Of a stretch of DNA of 64,000 bases, positions 45,551 through 64,000 are shown piece after piece. The stretch is from a bacterium (lineage in GTDB: Bacteria; Oederibacteriota; CAKKQC01): positions 107,214-171,213 of the forward strand of contig CAKKQC010000010.1 in NCBI GenBank assembly GCA_919901855.1, in the 5' to 3' direction. The notes under the pieces are model-generated. The model saw only the letters and a list, made by a program, of their open reading frames with translations. It ran no database searches and had not been told where the DNA came from. Positions within the stretch are counted from its first letter, which is position 1; every line of letters begins with the position of its first letter. A program made the translations under genes and the position numbers.

Positions 45551-46299
45551 GCGTCCGGTGGATCTTCCTCGCCGCGTGCCTCGCGATCCTGCCGGCGGTT
45601 TCCGGTCCCGCCGCGGCCGGGAAAACCGCGGGGGGCGGCGGGTCGTGCGCGGAGTGCCACCGGGGCCTCAAGGGTCCGGACGACCTCAAGCACACGTATC
45701 CGGACTGGAAGCGGTCCGTCCATGCGGCGGCGGGCGTCGGGTGCGAGGCGTGCCACGGCGGTGACCCGGTCAAGACCGGCCGCGAGGCGGCGCACGCGGG
45801 AGTCCTGCCCTCCAGCCAGCCGGGAAGTCCCGTCTACTTCACCGTGATCCCGAAGACCTGCGGAGTCTGCCACGCGAAGGAGCTGGCGGCGTTCCGGCGC
45901 AGCGTCCACTACCGCGAGCTGCAGACGTCCGGCCGGGGCCCGAACTGCGTTACCTGCCACGGCGCGATGGCGAGCCGTGTGCTGGAACCGAAGACGATGG
46001 AGATGACTTGCACGCTCTGCCACCGGCGGCCGACGCAGGCCTACGCGGCGAGGATGTCCCTCACCCATTCGGCCGACCAAGTGCGTCGACTGGGCCGGGC
46101 CGTGGAGCGCGGACGCCAGGCCGGGGTGGATGTGACGGCCCAGGCGCGCGAACTGGCCGACCTCACGGCGCGGCAGGCGCGGGCCGTCGTCGACTGGCAT
46201 ACGTTCGACATGGCCGGCGTGCTCGGGGCGACGCAGGCGGTGTCCCGCCGCGCGGCCACGGCCACGAACGAGCTCAAGCTCAAGGGGGCCGGGGAATGA
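45547..46299 (+). CDS. Periplasmic pentaheme cytochrome c
   Basis: The 250-residue product has a signal peptide (RWIFLAACLAILPAVSGPAAA) and five CXXCH motifs: CAECH, CEACH, CGVCH, CVTCH and CTLCH. The last 80 residues are heme-free and helical (LTARQARAVVDWHTFDMAGV). It overlaps both neighbours by ATGA and links the NrfD module to the Rieske/cytochrome b genes, so it may carry electrons between them or be the exit subunit of the Rieske complex. Confidence 0.85.
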   Translation: MSVRWIFLAACLAILPAVSGPAAAGKTAGGGGSCAECHRGLKGPDDLKHTYPDWKRSVHAAAGVGCEACHGGDPVKTGREAAHAGVLPSSQPGSPVYFTVIPKTCGVCHAKELAAFRRSVHYRELQTSGRGPNCVTCHGAMASRVLEPKTMEMTCTLCHRRPTQAYAARMSLTHSADQVRRLGRAVERGRQAGVDVTAQARELADLTARQARAVVDWHTFDMAGVLGATQAVSRRAATATNELKLKGAGE

Positions 46300-46814
46300 G
46301 GACGCCGATCGTCGATCCCGAGCGCCGGCCGGGGTTAAGCCGGCGGGCCTTCCTGACCGGCGCCATCGCGGCGGTCGGCGGGCTGATCGGGGCGGTGCTG
46401 GGCGGCGGCGGGCTCGGCTACGTGCTCTCGCCCCTGTTCCGGCGGCACGGCGAGGAATGGGTGGACATCGGGCGTGCGGACGAGGTCAGTCCCGGCGCCC
46501 CGATCAAGGTCGATTTCACGGTCCGCAAGCGCGACGCATGGACGACGGTGGAGCGGCGGGCGAGCGCCTGGGTGCTGACTGCCGACGGGAAGCAGTTTAT
46601 CGTGTACGATCCCCGGTGCACGCACCTGGGCTGTCCGTACCGGTGGGACCGGGACCTGGGCCGGTTCCTGTGCCCGTGTCACACCGCGGTCTTCGGGGTG
46701 GACGGACGCGTGGTCATGGGACCCGCGCCACGGCCGTTGGACCGGTTTCCGGTCAAGATCGTGGGTGGCCGGATCATGATCCGGCCGGAGCCCGTGAAGT
46801 CGGAGCGATCGTGA
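46296..46814 (+). CDS. Rieske iron-sulfur protein
   Basis: The 172-residue protein has a Tat-like signal/anchor (SRRAFLTGAIAAVGGLIGAV) and a Rieske domain. Box 1 CTHLGC gives ligands Cys108 and His110; box 2 CPCH gives Cys126 and His129; Cys113 and Cys128 are the conserved disulfide pair. It is the high-potential subunit of a cytochrome bc/b6f-type complex with the cytochrome b genes that follow. It is coupled to both neighbours by 4-base overlaps. Confidence 0.95.
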   Translation: MRTPIVDPERRPGLSRRAFLTGAIAAVGGLIGAVLGGGGLGYVLSPLFRRHGEEWVDIGRADEVSPGAPIKVDFTVRKRDAWTTVERRASAWVLTADGKQFIVYDPRCTHLGCPYRWDRDLGRFLCPCHTAVFGVDGRVVMGPAPRPLDRFPVKIVGGRIMIRPEPVKSERS

Positions 46815-47491
46815 AACGAATCCTGGATTGGGTCGATGAGCGCCTCGGCGCGGGGCCGATCTGGAAGGCCCTTTTCGCGCGGCACGTGCCCGAGGCGAGT
46901 GGGCCCGCCGCGTGGTTCTACACGTTGGGAAGCGCCTCCCTGTTCGTGTTCACCATCCAGGTCGTGACCGGGATCCTGCTGGCGATGAACTACGTCCCCT
47001 CGGCGGACCACGCGCACGATTCGGTCCAATTCATCGAGACGCAGGTCGTGCTGGGAAGGTTCATCCGGGGTCTGCACCACTGGGGGGCGACGTTCATGGT
47101 CGTGCTCGTCCTCCTCCACATGCTGCGCGTCTTCTTCATGGGCGCCTACAAGTACCCGCGGGAGGTCACGTGGCTCGTGGGCGTGGGGATCTTCCTGCTG
47201 GTGATGGGGTTCAGCTTTACCGGCTATCTCCTGCCCTGGGATCAGAAGGCGTACTGGGCCACGGCGGTCGGGACGAACATCGCGCGGCAGGTTCCGGCGG
47301 CGGGAGAGGCGATCGGGCTGGTGCTCAAGGGGTCCGAGGAGTTGGGCATGGCGACGCTGGCCCGGTTCTACGCCATGCATGTGCTCCTCCTGCCGGCCCT
47401 GACCGCGGGCCTGCTGGCCGCGCACCTCTTCCTCGTCGTCTGGCACGGGATCTCGGAGCCACCGTCCCGGTCGGGGGGGCCTCCTCCATGA
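46811..47491 (+). CDS. Cytochrome b6-type subunit (N-terminal half of cytochrome b)
   Basis: The 226-residue product has four membrane helices and the heme-binding His pairs expected of cytochrome b: in GLHHWGATFMVVLVLLHMLR and in FYAMHVLLLPALT with AAHLFLVVWHGI. GYLLPWDQKAYWA is the conserved PWDQ-type Qo-side motif. The size matches split b6f-type cytochrome b6. Its partner, the subunit IV domain, is encoded in the next gene. Translation begins at GTG 46811, overlapping the Rieske stop. Confidence 0.93.
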   Translation: MKRILDWVDERLGAGPIWKALFARHVPEASGPAAWFYTLGSASLFVFTIQVVTGILLAMNYVPSADHAHDSVQFIETQVVLGRFIRGLHHWGATFMVVLVLLHMLRVFFMGAYKYPREVTWLVGVGIFLLVMGFSFTGYLLPWDQKAYWATAVGTNIARQVPAAGEAIGLVLKGSEELGMATLARFYAMHVLLLPALTAGLLAAHLFLVVWHGISEPPSRSGGPPP

Positions 47492-48987
47492 CCCAGTGGC
47501 ACGCGGCTTACCGGGAGCATTACGCGAAGCTCAAGCGCGAAGGGGTGCCGTTCTTTCCCGATGTCGTGTTCAAGGATGCGGTGGTGGTCGTGCTGCTCTT
47601 CGCGGCGCTGTGCACGCTGGCCGTCGTGAAGGGGGCGCCGCTGGAGGAACTGGCCGATCCGACCGACGCCATGTACAACCCCCGGCCGGAGTGGTATTTC
47701 CTGTTCCTGTTTCAGGCGTTGAAGTTCTTCCCAGGATACCTGGAGGCGGTTGCGGCGGTCGTCCTGCCCGGCGTCGGTATCGCGGCGCTCGTCCTCCTGC
47801 CATTCCTGGATCGCGGGCCGGAACGGCATCCCCTCGACCGCCCGGTGATGCTGGCCGGGGGGCTCGCGGTGCTGGCGGGGATCGCTTGGCTGACCGTCGT
47901 GGGCGCGCGCGCGCCCTCGACGAACCCGGAGGCGGAACGAAATCCGCTGGTGGCCCAGGGTCAGCGCCTGTATGAGGAGTTGAAATGCGGAAACTGCCAT
48001 ACGATCCGCGGCCGTGGGGGCCTCGTCGGACCGGAACTCTCGACGATCGCGTCCTACCGCGATGCGGCCTGGCTCAAGCGACACTTCAGCCAGCCTTGGA
48101 AACTCGTTCCCGGCAGTGAAATGCCGGCCTACAACCTCCTTCCGGACGAGGCCGACGCCCTGGTGGCGCTCCTCCAGCATCTCGCCGGTGGAGGAGCCTA
48201 CACCCCACGGGCTCCCGTCCTCTTCGAAGCGAGCTGTGCGACGTGCCACGCACTGCATGGGAAGGGAGGAGGCGGTGGGCCGGACCTCTCGGAGGTCGGG
48301 AAATACCGAGAACTGGAGTGGGTTCGGGCGTACATCGCGGATCCGAAGACGAGGAATCCGGACGCCACGATGCCCGGGTTCAAAGGGGATCTCGCCGATT
48401 CCGCCATCGAGGACATCAGCCGGTATGTGACGTCCCAGCGGGGGATGAGCGGAGCGGCCGAGGGCAAGAGGCTATACGGTCGGTTGGGATGCGCCCACTG
48501 CCACGCCATCCGCGGGAACGGGGGGCGGGTCGGGCCGGACCTCGCCGCGGGGGCGGCTCGACGTGAGGTCGACTGGTTGAAGCGCCATTTCGAGAGACCC
48601 CGGGCGGTGGTGCCGGGAAGCCGCATGCCCAGTTTCAATCTCCAGCCCGGCCAAGTGGAGGCATTGGCGGACTATCTTCACAGCTTCGGCGGGTCGGGGG
48701 CGGTTTCCCCCCAGGCGCGCGAGCTGTTCGACCTCCACTGCGTGACCTGCCACAACCTGGACGGATCGGGCGGGAAGGCCGGTCCGGACCTGTCGGGCAT
48801 CGGTCTGCGGCGGGAGGTCATCTGGCTGACCGCGTATCTGGGCGATCCCAAGTACATCTATCCGACCACGGTCATGCCCTCGTTCAAGGGGACGCTGACC
48901 GCCCCCCAGATCGAGGATATCGCGCGATTCCTCTCGACTCAACGGAAGCCCTCCGTACGGAAGAGCGATGGCGGGCAGCCGGATTGA
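47488..48987 (+). CDS. Fusion of cytochrome b subunit IV with four c-type cytochrome domains
   Basis: The 499-residue protein begins with a subunit IV-like segment: FFPDVVFKDAVVVVLLFAAL, then YNPRPEWYFLFLFQALKFFP, the PEWYF (PEWY) motif of the Qo site, and three membrane helices (to about residue 150). The rest consists of four cytochrome c domains with CGNCH, CATCH, CAHCH and CVTCH, alternating between two sequence types with Met ligand candidates (SEMPAYNL, ATMPGFKG, SRMPSFNL, TVMPSFKG). It therefore supplies both the C-terminal half of cytochrome b and a tetraheme c1 equivalent. It ends the unit begun at 39794. Confidence 0.93.
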   Translation: MTQWHAAYREHYAKLKREGVPFFPDVVFKDAVVVVLLFAALCTLAVVKGAPLEELADPTDAMYNPRPEWYFLFLFQALKFFPGYLEAVAAVVLPGVGIAALVLLPFLDRGPERHPLDRPVMLAGGLAVLAGIAWLTVVGARAPSTNPEAERNPLVAQGQRLYEELKCGNCHTIRGRGGLVGPELSTIASYRDAAWLKRHFSQPWKLVPGSEMPAYNLLPDEADALVALLQHLAGGGAYTPRAPVLFEASCATCHALHGKGGGGGPDLSEVGKYRELEWVRAYIADPKTRNPDATMPGFKGDLADSAIEDISRYVTSQRGMSGAAEGKRLYGRLGCAHCHAIRGNGGRVGPDLAAGAARREVDWLKRHFERPRAVVPGSRMPSFNLQPGQVEALADYLHSFGGSGAVSPQARELFDLHCVTCHNLDGSGGKAGPDLSGIGLRREVIWLTAYLGDPKYIYPTTVMPSFKGTLTAPQIEDIARFLSTQRKPSVRKSDGGQPD

Positions 48988-50597: not shown

Positions 50598-51143
50598 GTG
50601 AAGGAACGCATTCATGCGTTGCTCGGCTGGCTGCTCGTAGGCTTGGCCGTCGTGGGGGTGATCGGGTGGCTTCAGGCGACACCGGGCTCCGCCCAGCCGA
50701 TCGCGTTCGACCACCAGAAGCATGTGGAAGGTGCAGGCCTGGAATGCACGCTCTGCCATCCGGGGGCGCGGGAAGGCCGCCGTGCCGGGATCGTCGCGGC
50801 GGGAGAGTGCATGGGCTGTCATGCCGACGCGGCTGCGGAGTCGCCTGAAGTCAAGAAGCTGAAGGCCTTTGCCGACCGGGGACAGCAAATTCCCTGGGTT
50901 CAGGTATACAAGGCTCCGCCTGACGATTCCAACATGTTCTTCCGGCCCAACGCCGTCCGCATCAACTTCTCCCACCAGCGCCATGTGGAGGCGGGTGCGG
51001 TGGACTGCGCGGCCTGCCATGGGGCGGTCGGCCACCGTTCCAAGCCGGTGACCTCGCCCGAGCTGCCGATCCGGATGAGACGGTGTCTGGAGTGCCATCG
51101 CGCCCGCAAGATAACTACGGATTGTCTGGCATGCCACCGCTGA
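50598..51143 (+). CDS. Membrane-anchored pentaheme cytochrome c, QrcA-like
   Basis: The 181-residue product has an N-terminal membrane helix (LLGWLLVGLAVVGVIGWL) and five CXXCH motifs: CTLCH, CMGCH, CAACH, CLECH and CLACH, with extra His for axial ligation (FDHQKHVEGAG; FSHQRHVEAGA). It has the position and anchor expected of QrcA in the Desulfovibrio menaquinone reductase Qrc, although QrcA is described as hexaheme. GTG 50598 is the start. It overlaps the next small gene by 13 bases. Confidence 0.85.
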   Translation: MKERIHALLGWLLVGLAVVGVIGWLQATPGSAQPIAFDHQKHVEGAGLECTLCHPGAREGRRAGIVAAGECMGCHADAAAESPEVKKLKAFADRGQQIPWVQVYKAPPDDSNMFFRPNAVRINFSHQRHVEAGAVDCAACHGAVGHRSKPVTSPELPIRMRRCLECHRARKITTDCLACHR

Positions 51144-51325
51144 CGCCTACCGATGGCACCGGCGCGATCATGCGCGATCGCGGCGCGCGAAACCTGGTGG
51201 TCCTGGTGTGTTCGGTCTGCGTGTTCCTGATCATCTTCTTCCTGTTCCTGGCCGTGCAGGCCAGGATGTGGACTCCCTACTGGGCGGTTCATCCGACGAC
51301 GGCCGTCCCTGCGGAGAAGCCGTGA
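51131..51325 (+). CDS. Small single-span membrane protein within the Qrc-like operon
   Basis: This 64-residue protein, from ATG 51131, has one membrane segment (LVVLVCSVCVFLIIFFLFLA) preceded by a basic patch (MRDRGARN) and a short tail with RMWTPYWAVHP. A shorter form could start at ATG 51170. It overlaps the upstream cytochrome gene by 13 bases and the downstream subunit by GTGA, so it is translated within the complex's operon. It is probably an accessory subunit. The family is not recognised and no counterpart is part of classical QrcABCD. Confidence 0.6.
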   Translation: MPPLTPTDGTGAIMRDRGARNLVVLVCSVCVFLIIFFLFLAVQARMWTPYWAVHPTTAVPAEKP

Positions 51326-53433
51326 ATCCGACGATGACGCGCCGCACGCTGCTGAAGCTAGGCGCCTGGGGGGGATTGGGCGCGCTGATTCCCAGGATCG
51401 CGCGCGGGATGGTCCTTACGCCCCGGGAGCCCGCGCTTCCCCCGCTCGACGCGGAGGAGTTCGCCCCGGCGATCTGCAAGTTCTGCACCGCGCAATGCAT
51501 GGCCCGGATTCGGCTGGTACGGGGCGAACCGGTGGGAGTGTCCGGCATGCCCGGGCATCCGGTCAGCCGGGGGGCGCTCTGTGCCAAGGGGTTCATGCTC
51601 CTGCACGAACTCGATCACCCGGACCGGCTGACCACGCCGGTACGCCGCACCGGGCCACGCGGCAAGGGAGGCTGGAAGCCGGTCACGTGGGATGAGGCCC
51701 ATGCCACCCTGGCCGCGAGGCTCGGTGCCCTGCGCGGGCGTGGCCGGGCGGCGGCGTTCGGCATGGTGGCCGCGCCGGTGCGGGATGTCCGGCACGAGTT
51801 GCAGCGCCGGTTCGCAGCCGCGTATGGCACGCCGAACTATTGGGAGGGGGAGTGGCGGCCGGGCCAGCCGCCGTTCGACGCATTCCGGGACATTCACGGC
51901 GCCGGAACCTTGCCCGCCTACGACCTGGAGGAAACGAAGTTGCTGGTCGGATTCGGCTGGGATTGGCTCCAGCAGCTCCCCCGCCACGTGGACGCGCAGA
52001 GGCATTACGCGGTGCTGCGGCAACGCCAGCCCGGCGGGGGGAGAATCATCCAGCTTGAGCCGCGCCGGTCGATCACCGCCGTCAAATCGGACTTGTGGTT
52101 TCCCATCATGCCCGGGACGGAGGGGGTCGCTGCCCTGTGCATAGCGCGCGCGCTGCTGGCGGCCGGGCGGCACGACAGGGCGTTTTGCGATCGCCGCACC
52201 TCCGGGTTCGCCGAGTTTCGCGACCTTGTGCTGGCGGGGTATCCACCCGAGCGGGCGGAGCGCGAGTGCGGGCTTTCACGAAAAGCCGTGGAGCGGGTGG
52301 CGATGGACATGGCGGAGATCCGGCCGTGCCTGGCGGTGACGAGCCGGGCGAGCGCGTTCAACCAATCGGCGGTGCATGCGTTGAACCTGCTGACGGGGAG
52401 CGTGGGAATTCCCGGCGGGGTCCGCGAACCGGCGGGCTCGGGGCCGGCCCCGCTGCTTCCCGGGCCGCTCGACGGGCCGCGCGGCCGCCGCCTGGCCGAC
52501 CTGGACGGGCTGGCGCGCGCCCTACTGGGAGGCGCGAATTCCCCCCTTGATACGCTGTGGATCGAGCAGGTGAATCCCGTGTTCCTGGGACCGGACCTCC
52601 GGACATGGCCGGCGGCGCTGGCGCGCGTTCCGTTCACGGTATGCGTTTCGCCGATCCTGGACGAGACCGCTTCGCTCGCCGATCTGGTGCTGCCTCCGCA
52701 TGCGTCCCTTGAGACCTGGCAGGACGCAGCGGCTTCGGTGAACGAGGGATCGGAAGTTCGCAGCTTCGCCCCTCCGGTGGTGAAACCGCGGCTTCAGACC
52801 GGCGATCTGGGCGACCTCGTGCTGCGACTTGGCCGGTCGCTCTCGGGCGGGATGGTCGCGGCGCTCCCCTGGCGCTCCGTCGAATCCGCGTTGCAGGCGG
52901 CGGCGGAGCAGGCGGGCGCCGGCCGGGCTTGGCGCGTCGGGGGCTGGCGCGAAAGGGAATCGTCGCGCCGCGCGAATGGTGGAGCCGGCGGCCTCCTCCG
53001 GTTTCCGCCGACGCGTCCTCCAGCTCCGGCCGACGCCCGGGCTTTCCCCTTGCGGCTCCATACGTACGTTCCGCTGGCGTTCTCCGGAGGATCCGGCGCG
53101 CACCTTCCGTATCTGCTGAGCATGGCGGGATCGGAGCTGAGCGAGCAATGGGAGACCTGGATGGAGATCCATCCGCAAACGGCGAAGGAGCTCGGAATCG
53201 GGCATGGGGCACGGGTCCGGGTGCAGTCCGCCGCCGGCATGGTCCGTGCCCGGGCCAGATTGTCCGAGGACGTTCTGCCTGGCGTGGCGACGCTCCCGAT
53301 CGGGCTGGGCCACACGGCGATGGGGCGCTGGGCGGCGGGCGTGGGAGCCAACCCCATCGAACTGATCGGTTCGGGAGAATCGTGGCCGCAGGGCGAGCCG
53401 GTCACGGTCCTCGCCGAGGGGAGGCGGGGATGA
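51322..53433 (+). CDS. Molybdopterin-oxidoreductase-type subunit, QrcB-like
   Basis: The 703-residue protein has a Tat-type signal (TRRTLLKLGAWGG), an N-terminal [4Fe-4S] motif C-x2-C-x3-C-x27-C (ICKFCTAQC through ALCAKG), and a DMSO-reductase-family body (HALNLLTGSVGIPGGV, LWIEQVNPVF, ADLVLPPHASLETW). Where catalytic members usually have Cys, SeCys or Ser as molybdenum ligand, I see no clear equivalent: the region reads AFRDIHGAGTLPAYDLEETK. QrcB and ActB have this fold without molybdenum, acting structurally or in electron transfer. Gene order with the cytochrome, FeS and NrfD subunits supports a Qrc-like identity. GTG 51322 overlaps the preceding stop. Confidence 0.82.
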   Translation: MNPTMTRRTLLKLGAWGGLGALIPRIARGMVLTPREPALPPLDAEEFAPAICKFCTAQCMARIRLVRGEPVGVSGMPGHPVSRGALCAKGFMLLHELDHPDRLTTPVRRTGPRGKGGWKPVTWDEAHATLAARLGALRGRGRAAAFGMVAAPVRDVRHELQRRFAAAYGTPNYWEGEWRPGQPPFDAFRDIHGAGTLPAYDLEETKLLVGFGWDWLQQLPRHVDAQRHYAVLRQRQPGGGRIIQLEPRRSITAVKSDLWFPIMPGTEGVAALCIARALLAAGRHDRAFCDRRTSGFAEFRDLVLAGYPPERAERECGLSRKAVERVAMDMAEIRPCLAVTSRASAFNQSAVHALNLLTGSVGIPGGVREPAGSGPAPLLPGPLDGPRGRRLADLDGLARALLGGANSPLDTLWIEQVNPVFLGPDLRTWPAALARVPFTVCVSPILDETASLADLVLPPHASLETWQDAAASVNEGSEVRSFAPPVVKPRLQTGDLGDLVLRLGRSLSGGMVAALPWRSVESALQAAAEQAGAGRAWRVGGWRERESSRRANGGAGGLLRFPPTRPPAPADARAFPLRLHTYVPLAFSGGSGAHLPYLLSMAGSELSEQWETWMEIHPQTAKELGIGHGARVRVQSAAGMVRARARLSEDVLPGVATLPIGLGHTAMGRWAAGVGANPIELIGSGESWPQGEPVTVLAEGRRG

Positions 53434-54272
53434 GAAGTCCGGGGCCGTTGGTGGATACGCGGGCGGGCGACGGGACGCGGCGCGGATTCCTCAAGGCCGG
53501 TTTGGCCGCGCTGGCGGGGGGCTGGGCACTCCTCGTCCGGCCGGTGCGTGGCGCGGCCGCGTCAGAACCTGAGTCCCGAGCCGCAGAGGGTCTGCCGCGG
53601 TGGGGAATGGTCATCGACCTGGACCGTTGTACCGCGTGCCAGTCGTGCACGGCCGCCTGCGCGGTCGAGAACAACCAGAGCCTCGGCAGTGTTGCCGAGG
53701 CGGCCCGGGGACGGCTGAACCGGTGGATTCACATCGTGGCGGTCCCCGATGTCGGCGGAGAACGCGGCGGGGTCCGGCTGGTCCCGATTCCCTGCCAGCA
53801 CTGCGAGAATCCTCCGTGCGTCAAGGTCTGTCCGACGTCCGCGACATACATGAATCCCGAGGGGATCGTGGGGCAGGTCTATTCCCGGTGCATCGGATGC
53901 CGGTACTGCGTCAATGCGTGTCCATATACCTGCAAGTACTTCAACTGGAGCGAGCCCAAGTGGCCTGGAGACATGGCCGAATCCCATAATCCGGACGTGT
54001 CTCCGCGCGAGAAGGGCGTCGTGGAGAAGTGCCTGTTCTGCCACCACCGCCTCCAGCGGGCCCGGGACCGCGCCCGGGCCGAGGGCCGCAGGATCCGCGA
54101 GGCGGATTACGTCCCGGCTTGCGTGACCGCCTGCCCGACGGGCGCAATCGGGTTCGGCGATCTGAATGATCCGGAGAGCTCCGTGAGCCAGATGGCGGGC
54201 AGTCCGCGGGCCTTCCGTCTGCTGGAGGACCTGGGAACACGACCCAAGGTCGCATACCTGCGTGAGCGGTAA
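53430..54272 (+). CDS. Periplasmic FeS subunit, QrcC-like
   Basis: The 280-residue product has a Tat signal (TRRGFLKAGLAALAGGWALL) and four cluster motifs: CTACQSCTAAC, CQHCENPPCVKVCP, CIGCRYCVNACP, and CLFCHHRLQ with ACVTACP. It is the electron-transfer subunit between the QrcB-like and NrfD-like subunits. A loop with NWSEPKWPGDMAESHNPDV before the fourth cluster is typical of the Qrc/ACIII-type FeS proteins. ATG 53430 overlaps the upstream stop, and its end overlaps the next gene by 11 bases if GTG 54262 is used there. Confidence 0.92.
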   Translation: MRSPGPLVDTRAGDGTRRGFLKAGLAALAGGWALLVRPVRGAAASEPESRAAEGLPRWGMVIDLDRCTACQSCTAACAVENNQSLGSVAEAARGRLNRWIHIVAVPDVGGERGGVRLVPIPCQHCENPPCVKVCPTSATYMNPEGIVGQVYSRCIGCRYCVNACPYTCKYFNWSEPKWPGDMAESHNPDVSPREKGVVEKCLFCHHRLQRARDRARAEGRRIREADYVPACVTACPTGAIGFGDLNDPESSVSQMAGSPRAFRLLEDLGTRPKVAYLRER

Positions 54273-55596
54273 GATGACCGATCCCAGGGTCCTGGCCGCC
54301 GAGAAGGCCGCGATCGCGCCGCTCGAGTCGGCGCCCGGGCCTGGCGGGCTGGCTTTCGCGGGCGCGCTGGGCCTCCTGTTCGCCGGGGCGTTGGGGGCAT
54401 GGGGCTGGCAGCTCCTGAACGGCCTCGAGGTGACCGGGCTCAACTCACCGGTGTTCTGGGGAGTTTACATCACCGACTTCGTGTTCTTTGTCGGGGTGAG
54501 CCACGCCGGGACCCTGATCTCGGCGATTCTCCGCATCACGGACGCACGATGGCGCACGCCCTACACGCGCATGGCGGAGATGATCACGATCGCCAGTCTG
54601 CCGTTCGCCGCCACGTGCGTGATCGTGGATCTCGGCAGGCCGGAACGCGCATTGAACGTTATCCTGTACCCGCACCTCACCTCTCCGATTCTCTGGGATG
54701 TCGTGTGCATCTCGACGTACGTGACGTGCTCCTGCCTCTATTTCTACACCGCTCTGATCCCCGACCTGGCGTTCTGCCGGGACCGCTGGGCCACTCGGGC
54801 CGGCTGGCGGCACTGGCTGTACATGGTCGCCGCCCTGGAGTGGACCGATACACCCTTGCAGCGGCGGGTCCACAACCGGATCATGACCGGGATGTCCATC
54901 GCCCTGCTGGGGCTGGTAATCTCGGTGCACACCAACGTCGGGTTCATCTTCGGGATGACGATCAAGCCCGGCTGGCACACGGCGATCATCGGTCCCTATT
55001 TCGTGATCGGCGCCGCCCTGCAGGGCTTGGGTGGGCTGGGGCTGATCGGGGTCATCCTGCGGCGCGTCCTGCGTCTCGAGCCGTTCATCAACGAGCACCA
55101 TCTCAATCAGCTCCGGCGGTTCACGATCGCCCTGATCTGTTTCTGGACCTACTTCACCGTCGCGGAACTGCTCACGACCTATTACGGGGGCATTCCACCC
55201 GAAATGCTGGTGTTCTGGAGCAAGGTCACGGGGCCCTTCGCCTGGAGCTTCTGGGGCATGATCCTGGGCTGTGCCGTGATCCCGTTCATCCTCCTGGTGT
55301 TCCAGCCCGGCCGCCTCACGGCCATGCTCGCCTGGTCGGGTGCGTTGATCAACATCGGCATGTGGCTGGAGCGCTACACCATCGTGGTGCCGACGGCGGC
55401 CAGTCCGTTCATTCACACCCTGGCTCGCAGCTACGTGCCGAGCTGGGTGGAGGTCATGATCAGCGTGGGGTGGCTGGCCGGGTTCGCCCTGCTCCTGGCG
55501 TCGTTCATGCGCGTGTTTCCGGTGCTCACCCTGTGGGAGTTGCGGGAGGAAGTCGAGGAAGAGCACGCCGCGGAGCACGGCGCACCGGAATCCTGA
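54262..55596 (+). CDS. NrfD-type quinone-binding membrane subunit, QrcD-like
   Basis: The 444-residue protein has about ten membrane helices, with the conserved TGLNSPVFWGVYITDFVFFV, GVSHAGTLISAILR and HTNVGFIFGMTIKPGWHTAI segments of the long NrfD subgroup found in Qrc, Hme and alternative complex III. This subunit binds menaquinone at the membrane. GTG 54262 gives an 11-base overlap; ATG 54274 is equally plausible. It is the last gene of the unit, followed by 379 bases without a gene. Confidence 0.92.
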   Translation: MSGKMTDPRVLAAEKAAIAPLESAPGPGGLAFAGALGLLFAGALGAWGWQLLNGLEVTGLNSPVFWGVYITDFVFFVGVSHAGTLISAILRITDARWRTPYTRMAEMITIASLPFAATCVIVDLGRPERALNVILYPHLTSPILWDVVCISTYVTCSCLYFYTALIPDLAFCRDRWATRAGWRHWLYMVAALEWTDTPLQRRVHNRIMTGMSIALLGLVISVHTNVGFIFGMTIKPGWHTAIIGPYFVIGAALQGLGGLGLIGVILRRVLRLEPFINEHHLNQLRRFTIALICFWTYFTVAELLTTYYGGIPPEMLVFWSKVTGPFAWSFWGMILGCAVIPFILLVFQPGRLTAMLAWSGALINIGMWLERYTIVVPTAASPFIHTLARSYVPSWVEVMISVGWLAGFALLLASFMRVFPVLTLWELREEVEEEHAAEHGAPES

Positions 55597-55975: not shown

Positions 55976-57631
55976 ATGAGAGCGAGTTCACTCATTTCCC
56001 GCGCGGTCGCGCTGGTCGGAGCCATGGTGATGCTGCCGGGGTGGGCCGGGGCTACGCTGACGGGCACGCTAACCGCGACGATCGCGGCGGGCCAACCGAT
56101 CCAACTGTCGCTGCTTGTGACGAACTCGGGGCTGACGGATGTCACGAACGTGGCGGCGCAGGCGTGGACGGCCGGGGCGGCGGCGATCAGCGCGCCGACG
56201 GCGTCGTCGACGTCGTACCTGACGCTGTACGCGGGGCAGGACGTGACGTTCGCGTGGACGGCGACGCCGAGTGCGGCGGGGGCGATCACGTTCACGGCGA
56301 GCGCGACGGGAGACGGGCCGGACTCGACTACGCCGGACACGGCGGGGGGTACGGTGGCGGCGGCGAACGCGGTGGGGCAGTTGACGTGGTCGCGGACGTA
56401 CGCGAACGTGGGGCAGGGGACGCAGGTGATGCTGACGGTGTCGAGCACGGGGGGGGCGACGCTGACGAACGTGATACCGCAGATTTCTGTTTTGGGACCG
56501 GCGGCGGTGTCGGTGCCGGTGCCTTTGACGTCCGCGGCGGTCGTGGCCGGGCAGCAGAAGACGTTCGTGTGGACGATCACGGCGACGGGTGCGGGTACGA
56601 TCGCGTACACGGCGAACGCGTCGGCGGACGGGCCGGTGGTGACGGTGCTGAATAACGGGTCGTTGAGCGCCTCGGCGTCGCCGCTGGCGGCCAAGGCGTT
56701 CCTGGCGACGCCTGGGGCGCTGTGGGCCGGGCAGACTACGGTGTTGTCGATGACGGTGTCGAACGTGGGAGGCGCGGCGGTGGGGAATCCGTCGGCGCGG
56801 GTGTGGGGGAACCTGAAGGCGACGGGTCTGCCGGGGGCGGGATTCTCGGCATCGGCGAAGGCGGTGACGTCGCTGGGGGTCAACGCGACGGTGGTGTTCA
56901 CGTGGACGATCACGCCGTCGGTTGCTGGTTTGCTGACGATCACGGGGACGCCGAGCGGGGACGGGGGGAGTTACGGTTCCGCGGTCAGCCTCACGGTGAC
57001 CGTGTACGCGGCGACGGCGATGCGGGCGCGGCTGGGGTGCGAGAAGCCCGGGGTGGCCGGTGCGCCGGTGCAGTTCCTGATGTCGCTTACGAACACCGGG
57101 GCGATGACGATCGTTAATCTGACGGCGGCGCTGTGGTCGGACTCGGTTGCGGCGGTGGGGGCGTCGACGCCGGCGACGGTGGCAACGCTGGTACCGGGGG
57201 CGCAGACGAGTTTCGTATGGACGGTGACGGCGTCGGATGCGCGGGCGATGAACTTCTACGCGGTGGCGAACGGGTTCACGACGAGCGCGACGGGGGCCGG
57301 GGTGGCGGCGGCGTCGAACGTGGCGGCGACGACGCTGGCGGGGATTCCGGCGCCGGGGGCGAAGGCCGCGTTCGTGTATCCGTCGCCGGCGCGTGACGCG
57401 GCGAACGTGGCGTACACGATGGCGGAAGCGGGGAAGGTCACGATTCGGGTGTACAGCGAGATCGGGGACCTGGTGGCGACGGTGGAGGAGGTCAAGACGG
57501 CGGGGGTGTGGTCGAGTCCGCTGACGACGTCCGGACTGGCGCCGGGGGTGTACTACCTGCTGGTGGAGAAGAAGTACGACTCGGGGACGAGCGAGAAGGC
57601 CGGCATGAAGAAGTTCGTGGTGGTGCACTGA
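55976..57631 (+). CDS. Secreted Ig-like repeat protein with T9SS-like sorting tail
   Basis: The 551-residue product has a signal peptide (SRAVALVGAMVMLPGWAGA) and about four Ig-like repeats of some 100 residues, each ending in a strand such as FAWTATPSAAGAITFTASAT, FVWTITATGAGTIAYTANAS or FTWTITPSVAGLLTITGTPS. The last 85 residues (FVYPSPARDAANVAYTMAEA, KVTIRVYSEIGDLVATVEEV, GLAPGVYYLLVEKK) look like a type IX secretion type A sorting or FlgD-like domain. It has no heme motifs. With the PorV-like protein encoded next, it may be exported to the cell surface. DNA and protein are strongly biased to Ala, Thr, Val and Gly. ATG 55976 has GGGAGG upstream. Confidence 0.78.
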   Translation: MRASSLISRAVALVGAMVMLPGWAGATLTGTLTATIAAGQPIQLSLLVTNSGLTDVTNVAAQAWTAGAAAISAPTASSTSYLTLYAGQDVTFAWTATPSAAGAITFTASATGDGPDSTTPDTAGGTVAAANAVGQLTWSRTYANVGQGTQVMLTVSSTGGATLTNVIPQISVLGPAAVSVPVPLTSAAVVAGQQKTFVWTITATGAGTIAYTANASADGPVVTVLNNGSLSASASPLAAKAFLATPGALWAGQTTVLSMTVSNVGGAAVGNPSARVWGNLKATGLPGAGFSASAKAVTSLGVNATVVFTWTITPSVAGLLTITGTPSGDGGSYGSAVSLTVTVYAATAMRARLGCEKPGVAGAPVQFLMSLTNTGAMTIVNLTAALWSDSVAAVGASTPATVATLVPGAQTSFVWTVTASDARAMNFYAVANGFTTSATGAGVAAASNVAATTLAGIPAPGAKAAFVYPSPARDAANVAYTMAEAGKVTIRVYSEIGDLVATVEEVKTAGVWSSPLTTSGLAPGVYYLLVEKKYDSGTSEKAGMKKFVVVH

Positions 57632-58623
57632 TGGAGGCCATGATGAACACCAAGACGGCGATGGGGCGGGGGATGCTGGCTGCGGGCGTGCTGGTGGCGC
57701 TGTCGGGCAGGGCCCAGGCGACGGAGACGCTGGAGGCGGTGGGCAAGCTCGCGATGCCCGGGACGTCACAGGTGGGAACGGCGCGGGTCATGGGGATGGA
57801 CGCGACGTGGGTGGGCGTGGCCGAGGGATCGGCGGCGCTGCAGGCGAATCCGGCGGGGCTGGGGGTGCTGGCGGGCGTGGAGACGGGCTGGCATCATGCG
57901 AGCCGGCTGGGGGGAGCGGTGGCGGAGACGATTCTCGCGGCGGTGCCGGTGGGCAAGCTGGGAGGGTTGGGTGTCTCGGTGGACTACGTGGATCACGGGA
58001 GCTTCGACAGCATGGATTCGTCGGGGAAGCTGACGGGGACGTACCGGGCGGGGTCGGTGGGCGGCAGCTTGGGGTGGGGATGTCCGGTGGTGGCGGACAT
58101 GTCGGTGGGGGTGGCGGTCCGGGGCGTGCAGCAGACGCTGGCGGACAGCGCGTACACGTCGGTGGCCGGGGACGTCGGGGTGTTGTGGAAGGGGATGCCG
58201 AACCTGACGGTGGGTGCGGCGGTGGCGAATATGGGTACGAGCGGGTCGGCGAGTGCGCTCGCGATGGTTCTGCGGGCGGGAGCGTCGTACACGATGGACC
58301 TGGGGACGATCAGCCGTCTGCTGATGGCGGCGGCGACGGAGGCACAGGCGGGCGGGGTTGCGCGCGTGGACGTGGGAGTGGAGGACACGCTGTTCTCCCG
58401 GTTGGCGGTGCGGGCGGGGTACCGGCTGAACCTGGCGACAACGAAGGTGACTGGGCTGACCGGGCTGACGGCGGGGTTGGGGGTCACGTTCGGGGCGCTG
58501 GCCTTGGACTACGCGTACCTGCCGATGGGTGAGCTGGGGAACTCGCAGCGGGTGAGTCTGACGTACCGGAAGGTTGGGGCCGCGAGCCATGAAGCTTCAT
58601 CTGAGCCGGGAGGTGCGCAATGA
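57631..58623 (+). CDS. PorV/PorQ-family outer-membrane protein
   Basis: The 330-residue protein has a signal peptide (GRGMLAAGVLVALSGRAQA) and the family's N-terminal signature: GTARVMGMDATWVGVAEGSA followed by ALQANPAGLG, matching the GARALGMG...NPAGL pattern of PorV/UPF0164 barrels. Alternating beta strands follow to a C-terminal QRVSLTYRKVG. PorV helps deliver cargo in type IX secretion, and the preceding gene encodes a protein with a matching sorting tail. It starts at ATG 57631 inside the upstream stop and overlaps the decaheme gene by ATGA. Confidence 0.82.
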   Translation: MEAMMNTKTAMGRGMLAAGVLVALSGRAQATETLEAVGKLAMPGTSQVGTARVMGMDATWVGVAEGSAALQANPAGLGVLAGVETGWHHASRLGGAVAETILAAVPVGKLGGLGVSVDYVDHGSFDSMDSSGKLTGTYRAGSVGGSLGWGCPVVADMSVGVAVRGVQQTLADSAYTSVAGDVGVLWKGMPNLTVGAAVANMGTSGSASALAMVLRAGASYTMDLGTISRLLMAAATEAQAGGVARVDVGVEDTLFSRLAVRAGYRLNLATTKVTGLTGLTAGLGVTFGALALDYAYLPMGELGNSQRVSLTYRKVGAASHEASSEPGGAQ

Positions 58624-59729
58624 GTCGGGCATGGAGGACGAGGTGGATGACGGCGGCGATGATCGCGGCCGTGGCGGGAATGCCGCGGTGGGCCGTTTCG
58701 GCCGAGGCTGGGGCCGAGCCGGACGCCCTTCCGGCGGCGGAAGAGCCGGCGACACCCGTCGCCACGCCGGCCGTGGAGGCGCCGAAGCCCGCGGAAGTCG
58801 CGAAGCCGGCGGAGGCCCCGAAGCCCGCGGAAGTCGCGAAGCCGGCGGAGGCCCCGAAGCCCGCAGCGGACGCCAGGCACGGCGAGGGTGAGTCGAAGGC
58901 GGAACCCGTGGGGGCGTCGACCTGCCTCGGGTGCCATGCGGCGCGCGAGGACTTCCGGGGGAACGTGCACGCGAAGGTGTGGCCCAAGGTGAAGGGCATC
59001 GATTTCGAGCATTCGTGCGAAGCATGCCACGGGAACGGTTCGGAGCACGCGGGGGCGGCGGGAGACAAGGCCAATCCCGGATACGCGACGGTCAAGCGGG
59101 CCAGCGAGGGTTCCGAGGCCTGCATGACCTGCCACAAAGGCCGGGGACGCATGCACTGGGAGGGCAGCGTGCACGAGACCCGCGGGGTCGGGTGCACGGG
59201 CTGCCATTCCGTACACAGCGGACACGGGGCAAAGAACCTCAGGACCGCCGATCCGAAGGACGTCTGCCTCGGGTGCCACCAGAACCTGAAGGGCGAGCTC
59301 CGGCGGCAGAGCCACCACCCGATTCTGGAGGGGCGGATCACCTGCGGGGACTGCCACAACCCGCACGGGTCGGCGGGACGGAAGCTCCTGGTCGGGGACT
59401 CGCTCAACCAGACCTGCTTCAAGTGCCATGCGGACAAGCGCGGGCCGTTCCTGTGGGAACACCGGCCGGTGTCCGAGGACTGCACGGTCTGCCACCTGAC
59501 CCACGGGTCGGTGCATGACAAGCTGCTCCGGCAGAAGTCTCCGATCCTGTGCCAGTCGTGCCACTCGGGGTCGCGGCATCCGGGTACACCCAACGCCGTG
59601 AATCCGAACACGCCGGGCGACAGCACGTACGAACGACTCCGGGTCCAGGTGTACTACCGCGGATGCCTGAACTGCCATCCGACCATCCACGGTAGCAACC
59701 ATCCGGCCGGCAACTTCTACCTGCGCTAA
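58620..59729 (+). CDS. DmsE/MtrA-type periplasmic decaheme cytochrome c
   Basis: The 369-residue product has a signal peptide, a Pro/Ala/Lys linker encoded by 36-base tandem repeats, and ten CXXCH motifs (CLGCH, CEACH, CMTCH, CTGCH, CLGCH, CGDCH, CFKCH, CTVCH, CQSCH, CLNCH). Segments such as CHNPHGSAG, ADKRGPFLWEHRPVSEDC and SPILCQSCH are hallmarks of the DmsE/MtrA/PioA family. These cytochromes sit inside an MtrB-type barrel and move electrons through the outer membrane. The MtrB/PioB-type gene follows directly. No DMSO reductase genes accompany it. The linker resembles extensions seen in PioA-like proteins. Confidence 0.93.
   Translation: MSRAWRTRWMTAAMIAAVAGMPRWAVSAEAGAEPDALPAAEEPATPVATPAVEAPKPAEVAKPAEAPKPAEVAKPAEAPKPAADARHGEGESKAEPVGASTCLGCHAAREDFRGNVHAKVWPKVKGIDFEHSCEACHGNGSEHAGAAGDKANPGYATVKRASEGSEACMTCHKGRGRMHWEGSVHETRGVGCTGCHSVHSGHGAKNLRTADPKDVCLGCHQNLKGELRRQSHHPILEGRITCGDCHNPHGSAGRKLLVGDSLNQTCFKCHADKRGPFLWEHRPVSEDCTVCHLTHGSVHDKLLRQKSPILCQSCHSGSRHPGTPNAVNPNTPGDSTYERLRVQVYYRGCLNCHPTIHGSNHPAGNFYLR
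58777..58864 (+). repeat. 36-base tandem repeat (two full copies and part of a third)
   Basis: The unit encodes the 12 residues EAPKPAEVAKPA. Copies lie at 58777-58812 and 58813-58848, with a partial third. It forms the flexible linker ahead of the decaheme domain; copy number may vary between strains. Confidence 0.85.
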
Positions 59730-59743
59730 GGGAGGTGAGAAAC

Positions 59744-61996
59744 ATGCGACGACTCATCGCGCTCCTGGTTCTTGGAATCATCGGGGGCACCCTGGCGCCC
59801 GCGTATGCGGCGGAAGGGCTCTCGGGCGACGTCAGCGTCGGCGGGGCCTACTCGGGCCCGGCGCCGGATAACGCGAAATACCGCGAGTTCTGGACTGGCA
59901 TGCACTCGGCGTTCGCGGTCATGCCGCAGGGCCGTGTGAGCTGGGAAACCAGGGTCGGGGACACTCCGCTCGAGGTCAACGGCGGGCTGAACGGCCGCTC
60001 GGGGCTCGAGGGGATCTCGCACGAGGGGGATGCGGGCCTCGACGTGGCGTCACTGGGGCTCTTCCGGTTCACGGGCTCGTACAAGCGGATCGGGCACAGC
60101 TTCGCCGTGGACGCCAAGTCGCTGTACAGCGGGATCGGGACGGGGGTGCTGACGTTCACTGACCCGACGCTCCAGCCGACGATGACGGCGGTGTCGGCGA
60201 CGAACTACAAGACGTCGACGCTGCAGAAGTACGTGGACTCGGCGGACCTCGTGAACCTGGGGCTGCGGCGGGACATCGTGAACCTCGGGGTCGAGGTGTC
60301 GGCGGCCGAGCCCCTGACGCTGGGCGTGGCCTTCATGGGCGAGCAGCGGCGGGGTTCGAGGCCGTTCTGGGCCTGCTTCGGGATGGGGAACTCGGTCGAG
60401 ATCGCGGAGCCCATCGACTACGACACGTTCGACGTGAGCACGAACGTCGGGTACGCGGAGACGGTTCCGTTGGCGGGCGGGATACCCGTTGTGGCGGAGG
60501 TGACGGCGGCGCACTCGGGGTTCCGGAACAACATCCCGAACCTCGTGTTCGGGAACCCGGGCGGGGCGGTGTCGATGTCGAACACGTACTCCGGCCTGCC
60601 GCTGGCGGGGAGCGTCTCGCTCGAGCCGAGCAACGCCGCGGACCGGGTGGGGGCGAGCGTATCGGCCATGCTGCCTCATCATGTCGGGGTGTCGGGGCAC
60701 GCGAGCGTCGCGCGGATGACCCAGAACATGGTCCTGCCGGCGATGTCGATCAACCCGGACCGGCCGTTCGCGCCGCCGTCGCAGTTGACGGCGGGCATGA
60801 AGGTCTACCAGAGCTTCTACGACACGTCGGTCGCCTACTCGCCCGTGCGCCGGGTGCATGTCAAGCTGCGCGCGAGCTATCGGCAACACGACAACCGGTC
60901 GCCGTCGTTCGTGCGGCCGGCGCCGTGGATCAACTACGACAGCTCGGTGAGCACGGTATCGGCAACGAGCCACGCCGTCAGCTCGATCGAACGCACGTAC
61001 GAGTTCGAGCAGGTCTTCGACGTGTCGCATCGCACGCGGATAACCTCGATCTTCGAGCACGAGCGCGCTTCGTTCATCAACGGATCCGCGGACGCGATGC
61101 GGACGAACGCGTTCAAGCTGGCGGTGGACACGCGGGTGGCCGACTGGGCGATGGTCCGGGCGAGCGGGCTGCACGCGGTCAGGGACAGCGCGTACCCGGA
61201 TTACAGGCTCGTGAACGCCGAGCTGCCGTGGGAGCGCAAGTACTACGCGGCGGACCGGGACCGGGACCAGCTGACGCTGATGGCGTCGGCGATGGCCTCG
61301 GAGGACCTCGACATCACGGTCGAGCACCGGGAAGGGCTGGACGACTACAAGCACTCGCTCTTCGGGATGTCCAGGGACCGGTCCCAGGCGTCGACCGTGG
61401 ACGTGACTTGGGGCGCGGGCGACGGAGTATCGGTGAACACGTTCGTTTCGCAGGAGCAATACGTGACGAACCAGCGGAGCCGGCAGTGGAACCCGGACAC
61501 CGCGACGGCACCGGGATCGGGGAACCCGTACAGCGCCTCGCCGACGCCCGAAGACCCCGGAAACTGGACGATCGAGTCCACGACCGTGGTGCGGACGATC
61601 GGAACGCGGACGGACCTGCAGCTCGTGCCGGAGACCCTGTCGATGCGGATCGAGGGCACGGCGTCGGTCGCGAACGGGAAGCTCGACTACGAGAGCCCGT
61701 TGTCGGCGACGTTGCCGCTGGACTCGAACATGTGGCTGCCGAACGACGTCAACGCGTCGGATGAGACCAAGTCGATCAACGCCGGGGTGAGCGTCCGGTA
61801 CCAGGTGACGAAGGCCATCTGGGCCTCGCTCGCGTACCGGTACGACCTCTGGCAGATCCGGGACGACAACCTGGACGGGTATTCGCCGGTGGCCGTGAAC
61901 TGGGCCAACGCGTACAACGGGATGGTCAACATGGACGCGCTGTGGAAGAACTACGAGGTCCACACGGTGCTTGCATCCGTGGGAATGAGTTTCTAA
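59744..61996 (+). CDS. MtrB/PioB-family outer-membrane porin of the decaheme conduit
   Basis: The 750-residue protein has a signal peptide (MRRLIALLVLGIIGGTLAPA) and a body of many amphipathic beta strands with long loops, ending in VLASVGMSF. N-terminal and barrel features (VSVGGAYSG, RLGHS-like IGHSFAVDAK, VKLRASYRQHDNRSP, VTVEHREG-like strands) fit MtrB/PioB, the barrel that encloses the decaheme cytochrome. The N-terminal CXXC motif known in Shewanella MtrB is absent; only one Cys is seen. ATG 59744 has GGGAGGTGAG at good spacing. A strong hairpin follows the gene. No MtrC-like surface cytochrome is encoded here. Confidence 0.88.
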   Translation: MRRLIALLVLGIIGGTLAPAYAAEGLSGDVSVGGAYSGPAPDNAKYREFWTGMHSAFAVMPQGRVSWETRVGDTPLEVNGGLNGRSGLEGISHEGDAGLDVASLGLFRFTGSYKRIGHSFAVDAKSLYSGIGTGVLTFTDPTLQPTMTAVSATNYKTSTLQKYVDSADLVNLGLRRDIVNLGVEVSAAEPLTLGVAFMGEQRRGSRPFWACFGMGNSVEIAEPIDYDTFDVSTNVGYAETVPLAGGIPVVAEVTAAHSGFRNNIPNLVFGNPGGAVSMSNTYSGLPLAGSVSLEPSNAADRVGASVSAMLPHHVGVSGHASVARMTQNMVLPAMSINPDRPFAPPSQLTAGMKVYQSFYDTSVAYSPVRRVHVKLRASYRQHDNRSPSFVRPAPWINYDSSVSTVSATSHAVSSIERTYEFEQVFDVSHRTRITSIFEHERASFINGSADAMRTNAFKLAVDTRVADWAMVRASGLHAVRDSAYPDYRLVNAELPWERKYYAADRDRDQLTLMASAMASEDLDITVEHREGLDDYKHSLFGMSRDRSQASTVDVTWGAGDGVSVNTFVSQEQYVTNQRSRQWNPDTATAPGSGNPYSASPTPEDPGNWTIESTTVVRTIGTRTDLQLVPETLSMRIEGTASVANGKLDYESPLSATLPLDSNMWLPNDVNASDETKSINAGVSVRYQVTKAIWASLAYRYDLWQIRDDNLDGYSPVAVNWANAYNGMVNMDALWKNYEVHTVLASVGMSF

Positions 61997-62124: not shown

Positions 62125-62194
62125 GGGGATCGGCAGGGGTATGCGCCATCATGGGTGAGCCGCCCGGGTGGCGGAGGCTGACAAGGAGGTCATC

Positions 62195-64000
62195 GTGGAC
62201 TGTGGCAGGCTGGGTGCGCTCATGTTCGCGGTCGCGGTCGCGGGGGCCGGGTCGGTGGCGACGGCGGCGGATGACGAGACCTGTGCCGCGTGCCACGGGC
62301 AGCGCGGCGGTGAGGCGCGGTTCGTCGATATGGAAGCATTCGGCGCGTCGATCCACGGCAAGAACCGGTGCGTCTCGTGCCATGCCGACGCGGTCGAGGT
62401 CCCCCACCCGGCGAAGCTGGTGCCCGTGTCCTGCAGCCGGTGCCACCGGGTGGAGAGCCAGATCTACCTCCAGTCCGACCACGGGCGCGCGGTCGCCCGG
62501 GGCCAGTCCGAGGCCGCCGCCTGCAAGGACTGCCACGGCCACACCCACACCCTACAGAACTCCCGGAAAGCGGCCTCCCCCGTCAACCGGCGCAACATCG
62601 AGCGCACGTGCGCGCGGTGCCACGAGAACGGCGCCATGATGTCGAAGTTCCAGCTCTCCGAACAACACCCGGTCGTCTCCTACGACCTGACCGTCCACGG
62701 CACGGCCGCCCGGCAGGGGCGGCTCAACTCCGCCGTCTGCACCGATTGTCACGGGTCGCACGATCTTCACGGGGCGTCGAACGGCGCCAGCCGCATCTTC
62801 TGGCGGAACACACCCGAGACTTGCGGCCGGTGCCACGCGAACGTCCTCTCCGTCTACAAGATGAGCATCCACGGGCAGGCCGCCGCGCAGGGCATCAAGG
62901 AGGCGCCCGTCTGCACCTCGTGCCACGGCGAGCACACGATCCGGCCGATGACGGACAAGAGCTCCCTGGTCTACCGCGGCGCCGTGACCAAGACTTGCGC
63001 CGGATGCCATGCCCAGGAGCGCGTGGCGCTGAAGTTCGGGCTGCCCGCGGACCGCCTGCCGTCGTACCTCGATACTTACCACGGATTGGCGGCCAAGCGC
63101 GGGGACCTCCGGGTCGCGAACTGTGCGTCCTGCCACGGGTTCCACGACATCCTGCCGTCTTCCGATCCGCGGTCCTCGATCAACCGCGTCAACCTGGCCG
63201 GCACCTGCGGCCGCTGCCACCCGGGGGCGAGCGAACGGCTGGCCAAGGGGTGGGTCCACGGTCCGCCGGGAAGCAAGCACTGGTCGCTCACGCTGGCCCG
63301 GTGGTTCTACCTGATCGTGATCCCCCTGACGATCGGGGGCATGGTCCTGCATAACCTCCTCGATCTCGTCCGGAAGGCCCAGCGTCCGTCCCACGTTCCC
63401 GCAGGGACGCCCGAGGGCCTGCGGCTCACGATCGGGGAGCGGTGGCAGCACGGGATCAACCTCGTCTGCTTCGTCGCGCTGGCCTATTCGGGGTTCGCGC
63501 TCAAGTACCCGGATTCGACGTGGCTCGCCCTGCTCGCCCCGCTGGGCGAGGCCGGGCGCCGGGGCCTGCACCGGTGGACCGCGCTCGCGTTCTGCCTGCT
63601 GGCCGTCTACCACCTCGGCTACCTGGCGCTGGCCGCGCGGGGGCGCAAGATCCTGCGCGAACTGCTGCCTGGTCCCGGGGACGTCCGGGAGGTGTTCGCG
63701 CGCCTTCGGTACTATCTCGGCGCCGGCCCGGCGCCCGAGCACGGCCACGGCCACTTCCACTACGCGGAGAAGGTCGAGTACTGGTCGCTCGTCTGGGGCT
63801 CCTTCGTCATGATCGTGACGGGCGTGATTCTGATCTTCAACAACGTCGCGATGCGGCACTTCGAGCCGTGGCTGCCGGACCTCGCGACGATCATCCACTT
63901 CTACGAGGCGATTCTGGCCTGCACCGCGATCGTAGTCTGGCATTTCTACCTCGTGATCTTCGATCCCGACATCTATCCGATGAACATGGCCTGGCTGACC
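62195..64000 (+). CDS. CbcL-like fusion of 11-heme cytochrome c and membrane cytochrome b (3' end beyond window)
   Basis: The frame is open from GTG 62195, preceded by AAGGAGGT, to the window end, so at least 602 residues are visible. After a signal peptide (LGALMFAVAVAGAGSVATAA) come eleven CXXCH motifs: CAACH, CVSCH, CSRCH, CKDCH, CARCH, CTDCH, CGRCH, CTSCH, CAGCH, CASCH, CGRCH. From about residue 368 membrane helices follow (WFYLIVIPLTIGGMVLHNLL, LVCFVALAYSGFALKY, WTALAFCLLAVYHLGYLALA, VWGSFVMIVTGVILIF, IIHFYEAILACTAIVVWHFY) with His pairs typical of b561/FdnI-type cytochrome b. Geobacter CbcL has the same order, with nine c-hemes, and oxidises menaquinol for low-potential metal reduction. 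Confidence 0.88.
   Translation, partial: MDCGRLGALMFAVAVAGAGSVATAADDETCAACHGQRGGEARFVDMEAFGASIHGKNRCVSCHADAVEVPHPAKLVPVSCSRCHRVESQIYLQSDHGRAVARGQSEAAACKDCHGHTHTLQNSRKAASPVNRRNIERTCARCHENGAMMSKFQLSEQHPVVSYDLTVHGTAARQGRLNSAVCTDCHGSHDLHGASNGASRIFWRNTPETCGRCHANVLSVYKMSIHGQAAAQGIKEAPVCTSCHGEHTIRPMTDKSSLVYRGAVTKTCAGCHAQERVALKFGLPADRLPSYLDTYHGLAAKRGDLRVANCASCHGFHDILPSSDPRSSINRVNLAGTCGRCHPGASERLAKGWVHGPPGSKHWSLTLARWFYLIVIPLTIGGMVLHNLLDLVRKAQRPSHVPAGTPEGLRLTIGERWQHGINLVCFVALAYSGFALKYPDSTWLALLAPLGEAGRRGLHRWTALAFCLLAVYHLGYLALAARGRKILRELLPGPGDVREVFARLRYYLGAGPAPEHGHGHFHYAEKVEYWSLVWGSFVMIVTGVILIFNNVAMRHFEPWLPDLATIIHFYEAILACTAIVVWHFYLVIFDPDIYPMNMAWLT

Follow-up and report, generated by a model that had tools for sequence, protein, structure and literature searches.

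A sorting-tail protein and a PorV-type barrel encoded in one unit with an MtrA/MtrB-type electron conduit

We analyzed a 64,000-nucleotide (nt) stretch of bacterial DNA (the window; contig CAKKQC010000010.1, here C10, positions 107,214 to 171,213) from a genome, G000, that is 93% complete. At positions 55976-61996 it carries four genes head to tail on the + strand, encoding a secreted immunoglobulin (Ig)-repeat protein with a sorting-type tail (REP), a PorV-like barrel (PORV), a decaheme cytochrome (DMSE) and the porin of that cytochrome (MTRB). This arrangement, proposed in a preliminary description made from the letters alone, was confirmed, and the same unit was found in a second genus. We consider the chances even that REP and PORV form a dedicated type IX-like cargo-shuttle pair, made together with an MtrA/MtrB-type electron wire, in which REP acts as a binding or adhesion module.

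55976..57631, + strand: REP, secreted Ig-repeat protein with a Sec signal peptide, 551 amino acids (aa) (Pfam and NCBIfam profiles)
57344..57628, + strand: C-terminal sorting domain of REP, a type A-like C-terminal domain (CTD) of the final ~95 aa, ending in KKFVVVH (Pfam and NCBIfam matches, residues 463-542)
57631..58623, + strand, probable start 57643: PORV, outer-membrane barrel of the PorV/PorQ family (NF033709)
58620..59729, + strand: DMSE, decaheme c-type cytochrome of the DmsE/MtrA type (TIGR03508; 10 CXXCH motifs)
59744..61996, + strand: MTRB, outer-membrane barrel of the MtrB/PioB family, sheath of the conduit (PF11854; start codon set by comparison with the second genus)

The four-gene unit and its conservation

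REP has a hydrophobic N-terminus and carries DUF7507, DUF11 and CARDB-type Ig repeats (Pfam). Its tail reached 28.2 bits with the Por_Secre_tail model (PF18962), above the Pfam cut-off of 27, and 22.5 bits with the NCBIfam model TIGR04183, just under the cut-off of 23. An AlphaFold model of REP was all beta, with a predicted local distance difference test score (pLDDT) of ~80 in the tail and a weak overall value of 57; Foldseek with this weak model returned generic Ig-repeat proteins, from which no conclusion was drawn. In hmmscan, neither PORV nor REP matched PorP/SprF or the type B tail (TIGR04131), and the matches were to PorV/PorQ and type A-type models instead.

For DMSE, the match to the DmsE family TIGR03508 reached 249 bits (cut-off 192), and its profile retrieved MtrA of the solved MtrCAB complex from the PDB (6r2q_A, E 1.6e-79). 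MTRB matched Pfam MtrB_PioB (PF11854) with 232.8 bits against a cut-off of 23 and retrieved MtrB (6r2q_B, E 9.2e-10); with TIGR03509 it scored 206, short of the cut-off of 240. Between its signal peptide and its heme domain, DMSE also has a Pro/Ala/Lys-rich repeat extension (58700-58905; PAEAPKPAEVAKPAEAPKPA), with a similar stretch in the second genus, which is possibly a periplasmic tether.

That second genus is represented by G001, a Candidatus Coatesbacteria metagenome-assembled genome (MAG) from the same family. G001 carries REP, PORV, DMSE and MTRB in identical order with near-identical junctions, at protein identities of 46%, 52%, 57% and 41%, respectively. A separate contig of G001 shows an 11-heme cytochrome b protein encoded after the C-terminal part of MTRB, as in the window. 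The genes upstream of REP differ between the two genomes. The window has Qrc-like genes there, and G001 has a radical-SAM-like and a barrel-like gene, both of which resemble, in tail sequences and lengths, genes near C10:194600-197760 of G000. The conserved block, as read from these two loci, is thus one that starts at REP. The flanking genes of the unit in the window are as follows.

50598..55596, + strand: Qrc-like menaquinone-reductase genes (QrcA-D-like), adjacent upstream (NF041781-NF041784, all below curated cut-offs); not present at the corresponding place in G001
62168..64000, + strand, running past the window end: CYB, 626-aa membrane protein combining an 11-heme c-type cytochrome with a b561-type part (Pfam Cytochrome_C7 and Ni_hydr_CYTB)

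Conservation at 41-57% identity next to changed upstream neighbours would not be expected by chance. Based on 51 cargo-PorV pairs per genome, we estimate the chance of such a pair lying beside any one operon at ~1%. Chance-only placement was rejected because the unit is conserved in the second genus, and a chimeric MAG was rejected because the unit is also present in an independently assembled MAG.

The preliminary description had joined the genes by overlapping stop and start codons, which holds for one junction and probably not for two others. Both genomes do have the ATGA overlap between PORV and DMSE. A TGATG overlap does exist between REP and PORV; however, G001 shares the GGAGG at 57634-57638 and the ATGAACACC that follows at 57643, so PORV probably begins there, 11 nt beyond the end of REP. 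Similarly, GGAGG followed by ATGCGACG is conserved between the window and G001 ahead of MTRB, which argues that MTRB probably starts at ATG 59744, after a 14-nt gap, and not at GTG 59735. With that start, 14 nt is the largest intergenic gap within the unit; the gap upstream of REP is ~380 nt and the gap from MTRB to the downstream cytochrome gene is ~170 nt.

Probable type IX-like export and cargo-PorV pairs in the genome

The proposed display of REP on the cell surface calls for a type IX route in G000, for which the preliminary description had asked that PorK/L/M/N/SprA homologues be sought. A SprA/Sov gene encoding 1951 aa was found on contig C23, matching TIGR04189 with 263.5 bits against a cut-off of 200, and its best PDB match was SprA itself (6h3i_A, E 8e-19); the possibility that the genome has no type IX genes was thereby rejected. 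The PorL/PorM motor was not detected. The SprA/Sov gene is followed in one operon by genes for a sorting-tail cargo and a PorV (L068:3188-12100, on C23), and a similar operon is present in G001 (L129). SprA was matched in 39 of the 44 phylum genomes at E <= 0.001, with scores above the cut-off in 3 of them.

The pairing of REP with PORV is one case of a genome-wide pattern. G000 gave 66 PorV-family matches, corresponding to 61 distinct genes after our own gene calling, and at least 15 of these paralogues scored above the NCBIfam cut-off. A same-strand gene lies within 60 nt upstream of 52 of the 61 PorV genes, and 51 upstream proteins have a sorting tail according to a hidden Markov model (HMM) grown from the REP tail. 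Many of the cargo and PorV genes overlap by 1 or 4 nt (e.g., L050, L068, L081 and L097). No heme motif was found in the neighbouring sorting-tail cargos of G000. PorV genes, from several to dozens per genome, occur in all 44 phylum genomes. At two contig starts (L075, start of C37; L085, start of C12) lie cargo-PorV pairs whose PorVs are almost the same. This is a recent duplication, and the identical sequence may have broken the assembly.

PorV distances and tail distances were correlated (Mantel r = 0.66; best of 5,000 shuffles, 0.25), and the 150 residues immediately preceding the tail gave a correlation of 0.25 with PorV distances. The correlation with the tail matches what dedicated cargo-shuttle pairs would predict. 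Such pairing across a whole genome, in a bacterium outside Bacteroidota, may be more consequential than the conduit-linked unit itself. Because the genome has SprA/Sov, and because PORV belongs to a PorV set paired one-to-one with sorting-tail cargo, REP is likely to be displayed on the surface through a type IX-like route, in line with the preliminary description.

Proposed function and its alternatives

The proposed mechanism is as follows. REP would cross to the periplasm via Sec. The C-terminal domain of REP would then pass through the SprA/Sov translocon and be taken over by PORV, its dedicated PorV-type barrel, so that export of REP would depend on both. REP would stay on the cell surface, probably held by PORV, since no PorU sortase was found. 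DMSE and MTRB would form an MtrA/MtrB-type wire across the outer membrane, into which electrons from menaquinol would enter via CYB, and, with the four genes made together, REP would be displayed when and where the wire is built. REP as an electron carrier was rejected, as it is heme-free, as the preliminary description had it, and has one Cys and one His. Being so poor in redox-active residues (the G001 orthologue has no Cys at all), REP should bind, dock or adhere rather than conduct. It would most likely be a binding or adhesion module, whose target could be a mineral, a cell or a secreted cytochrome encoded elsewhere.

Relatives of the pair agree with such a role. A tree of 82 sequences placed the PORVs of both genera in one clade (support 100/99) within a phylum-wide pair subfamily (100/100), of which the window PORV is the sole member among the PorVs of its own genome used in the tree. 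Both G001 and subfamily members from other families share the conserved sorting domain. In relatives, a tail of this kind carries varied cargo bodies, either beta-propellers (SBBP, NHL) or CBM9/PA14 modules, and this variability points to display or binding roles. In further relatives, pairs of the subfamily lie beside a sigma-factor-like gene, and none of these pairs is near a conduit.

In the last group, a sigma-factor-like gene and a gene for a 200-300 aa protein adjoin the pair at L122:6922-8176 and also at L120, L121, L123, L124, L126, L127, L131 and L132. At L122, the one tested, they encode an extracytoplasmic function (ECF)-type sigma factor and a protein with a C-terminal FlgD-like Ig domain, possibly an anti-sigma factor that senses export.

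Several observations weigh against the reading of REP and PORV as a dedicated pair tied to the conduit. PORV scored 87.2 bits (E 1.5e-24) with the NCBIfam model PorV_fam (NF033709), slightly under the cut-off of 90, and its AlphaFold model from a two-row alignment had a mean pLDDT of 29 and was not used. The PorL/PorM motor (TIGR03517, TIGR03513) was not detected in G000 and G001, with only sub-threshold matches (E 0.02-0.06) in 1 of 13 genomes, and the C25 sortase PorU (PF01364) was not found in G000 and G001 and was present in G002 and G011; these negatives come from models built from Bacteroidota and, for G000, from a 93% complete genome. The export route would therefore differ from that of the studied type IX secretion systems (T9SS). 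Pairs duplicating as units would also yield part of the PorV-tail correlation. The four-gene combination was found in two genomes only. Pairs of the REP-PORV subfamily occur without a conduit (in G003 and G026 as a tandem triplicate, in G011 singly, and in others), and the phylum members G009 and G032 carry DmsE-MtrB without the pair. The preliminary description had held that its proposal would fail if related genomes carried DmsE/MtrB without the first two genes and the genome had no type IX gene at all; the former was found, the latter was not, SprA being present.

The same distribution bears on the origin of the unit. A DmsE profile scan of the genome contigs gave 10 loci, with a PorV or sorting tail nearby only in G001, and six-frame HMM searches with positive controls found neither near nine DmsE loci from other phyla nor in G032, G009 and G053. 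The co-occurrence that the preliminary description had proposed to search for was thus seen in G001 and at none of the other DmsE loci examined. Because the pair occurs without the conduit, and the conduit without the pair, in phylum relatives, the unit is two known modules that were joined in one family and then kept. That it was kept suggests that REP may be displayed where electrons leave the cell, and REP could be an outer partner of the conduit. A more specific proposal, which we regard as doubtful, is that a type IX-type route was recruited into an electron-transfer machine, with REP, held by PORV beside MtrB, as a heme-free docking or adhesion cap, in a phylum whose type IX system would be motorless and would have its own PorV for nearly every surface protein.

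It is possible, though on the unlikely side, that the link is one of co-regulation only, and that REP-PORV is a general surface adhesin pair expressed with the conduit, for example during growth on surfaces, without physical contact. Elsewhere the subfamily is free-standing, in tandem or beside an ECF sigma factor, with beta-propeller or carbohydrate-binding bodies, and the 51 such pairs in G000 lie in many contexts. However, the tight junctions with DMSE were kept in two genera although the upstream neighbours changed, which speaks against this reading.

A comparably tentative alternative is that the outer partner of the conduit is a separate secreted multiheme cytochrome, with REP at most a scaffold. 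No outer multiheme cytochrome or terminal reductase is encoded inside the four-gene unit, so the earlier statement that an MtrC-like surface cytochrome is lacking stands for the unit; it does not stand for the contig, where two secreted 11-heme proteins are encoded farther downstream (C10:184387-185388 and C10:190441-192510). Both lie in the same respiratory island, and the second, next to NHL-like beta-propeller proteins, matches MtrC/MtrF domain II/IV with a score of 35.6 against a cut-off of 30. They are nevertheless ~15-23 kb past the end of MTRB (C10:169209), or 23-31 kb downstream when the span is measured from REP, and neither protein has a visible sorting tail or lipobox.

CYB lies between the unit and these genes. 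Its full-length gene (L038:9382-11262) encodes a protein 72% identical to one from G001 (L033:604-2469), which is also downstream of MtrB; its layout is like that of CbcL, and CYB is a probable quinol oxidoreductase feeding the conduit. From CYB onward, the respiratory island beyond the window (C10:169381-192509; L038:9382-16999 and L039:4387-12510) encodes 8-, 19- and 11-heme cytochromes, NHL-like proteins and the MtrC/MtrF-type 11-heme secreted protein. Another cluster lies within the window at 41355-48987 and encodes a 13-heme NrfH-like cytochrome, a 4-heme cytochrome, an FeS-like protein, an NrfD-type membrane protein and a 5-heme cytochrome, together with a probable Rieske protein and a split cytochrome b with four c-type hemes. 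It looks like an unusual quinol oxidase complex.

It is improbable that PORV is a FadL-like transporter and the REP tail an ordinary FlgD/Ig-like domain, with no type IX export. The undetected PorL/PorM motor and PorU would fit this, as would the weak Pfam UPF0164 matches of PORV, its lack of any PDB match by sequence, and the resemblance of the CTDs to FlgD_ig domains. However, an above-cut-off SprA/Sov shares an operon with a cargo and a PorV, SprA is widespread in the phylum, the PorVs are paired and correlated with the tails, and REP passes the Pfam sorting-tail cut-off. Chance juxtaposition of one of many cargo-PorV pairs with a conduit operon, with no shared function, is very improbable: with 51 pairs in a genome, some will often adjoin an operon, and for 18 of the 61 PorV genes the next gene downstream lies no more than 20 nt away, but order, overlap and short gaps were kept in the second genus.

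Comparison with known systems

Type IX genes have been noted in several other phyla of the Fibrobacterota-Chlorobiota-Bacteroidota (FCB) group (PMC11285876), and their occurrence outside Bacteroidota is therefore not in itself new. In the open-licence PubMed Central literature, we found no paper that combines "Coatesbacteria" with "type IX secretion" and nothing describing an MtrAB-type conduit to which a sorting-tail cargo and a PorV are joined. Both modules are known; the new part is the joining of a PorV-type dedicated cargo-shuttle pair to such a conduit.

In the T9SS of Bacteroidota such as Flavobacterium johnsoniae, the gene for a type B CTD cargo is followed by that of its own PorP/SprF shuttle, in many pairs, with display through SprA (PMC12618676, PMC9143113). 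The pairs described here are alike in that the cargo gene is directly followed by its own shuttle gene, in their number and in the presence of SprA. They differ in having a PorV-family shuttle and a type A-like tail, in amounting to ~51 pairs in a host outside Bacteroidota, in the lack of a detected PorL/PorM or PorU, and in the joining of one pair to an electron conduit. Secretion of type A cargo by way of PorV, as in Porphyromonas gingivalis and F. johnsoniae, likewise involves SprA/Sov, a PorV-family barrel and a type A-like CTD. There, a single PorV serves all type A tails (PMC12618676), whereas here a separate PorV tends to accompany each cargo. With ~51 correlated PorV-cargo pairs and SprA, and no detected motor or sortase, the genome offers a test of two questions, what encodes the specificity of a cargo for its shuttle and what minimum of components type IX export requires.

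On the conduit side, mtrCAB clusters have a conserved MtrAB core with exchangeable "passenger" neighbours, and the passengers described include cytochromes, quinol dehydrogenases and cytochrome-maturation genes, with no sorting-tail cargo or PorV seen among them (PMC8805035). As in MtrCAB, DmsEFAB, PioAB and MtoAB, a DmsE/MtrA-type decaheme cytochrome here adjoins an MtrB/PioB barrel. PioAB and MtoAB are likewise not known to include an MtrC, so the absence of MtrC alone is not new. In contrast to MtrCAB and DmsEFAB, the unit contains no MtrC-type cytochrome or terminal reductase, and a heme-free sorting-tail protein and its shuttle precede the conduit. If the proposed function is correct, outer cytochromes and reductases would not be the only means of furnishing the external side of an electron conduit, and this unit would represent a second one.

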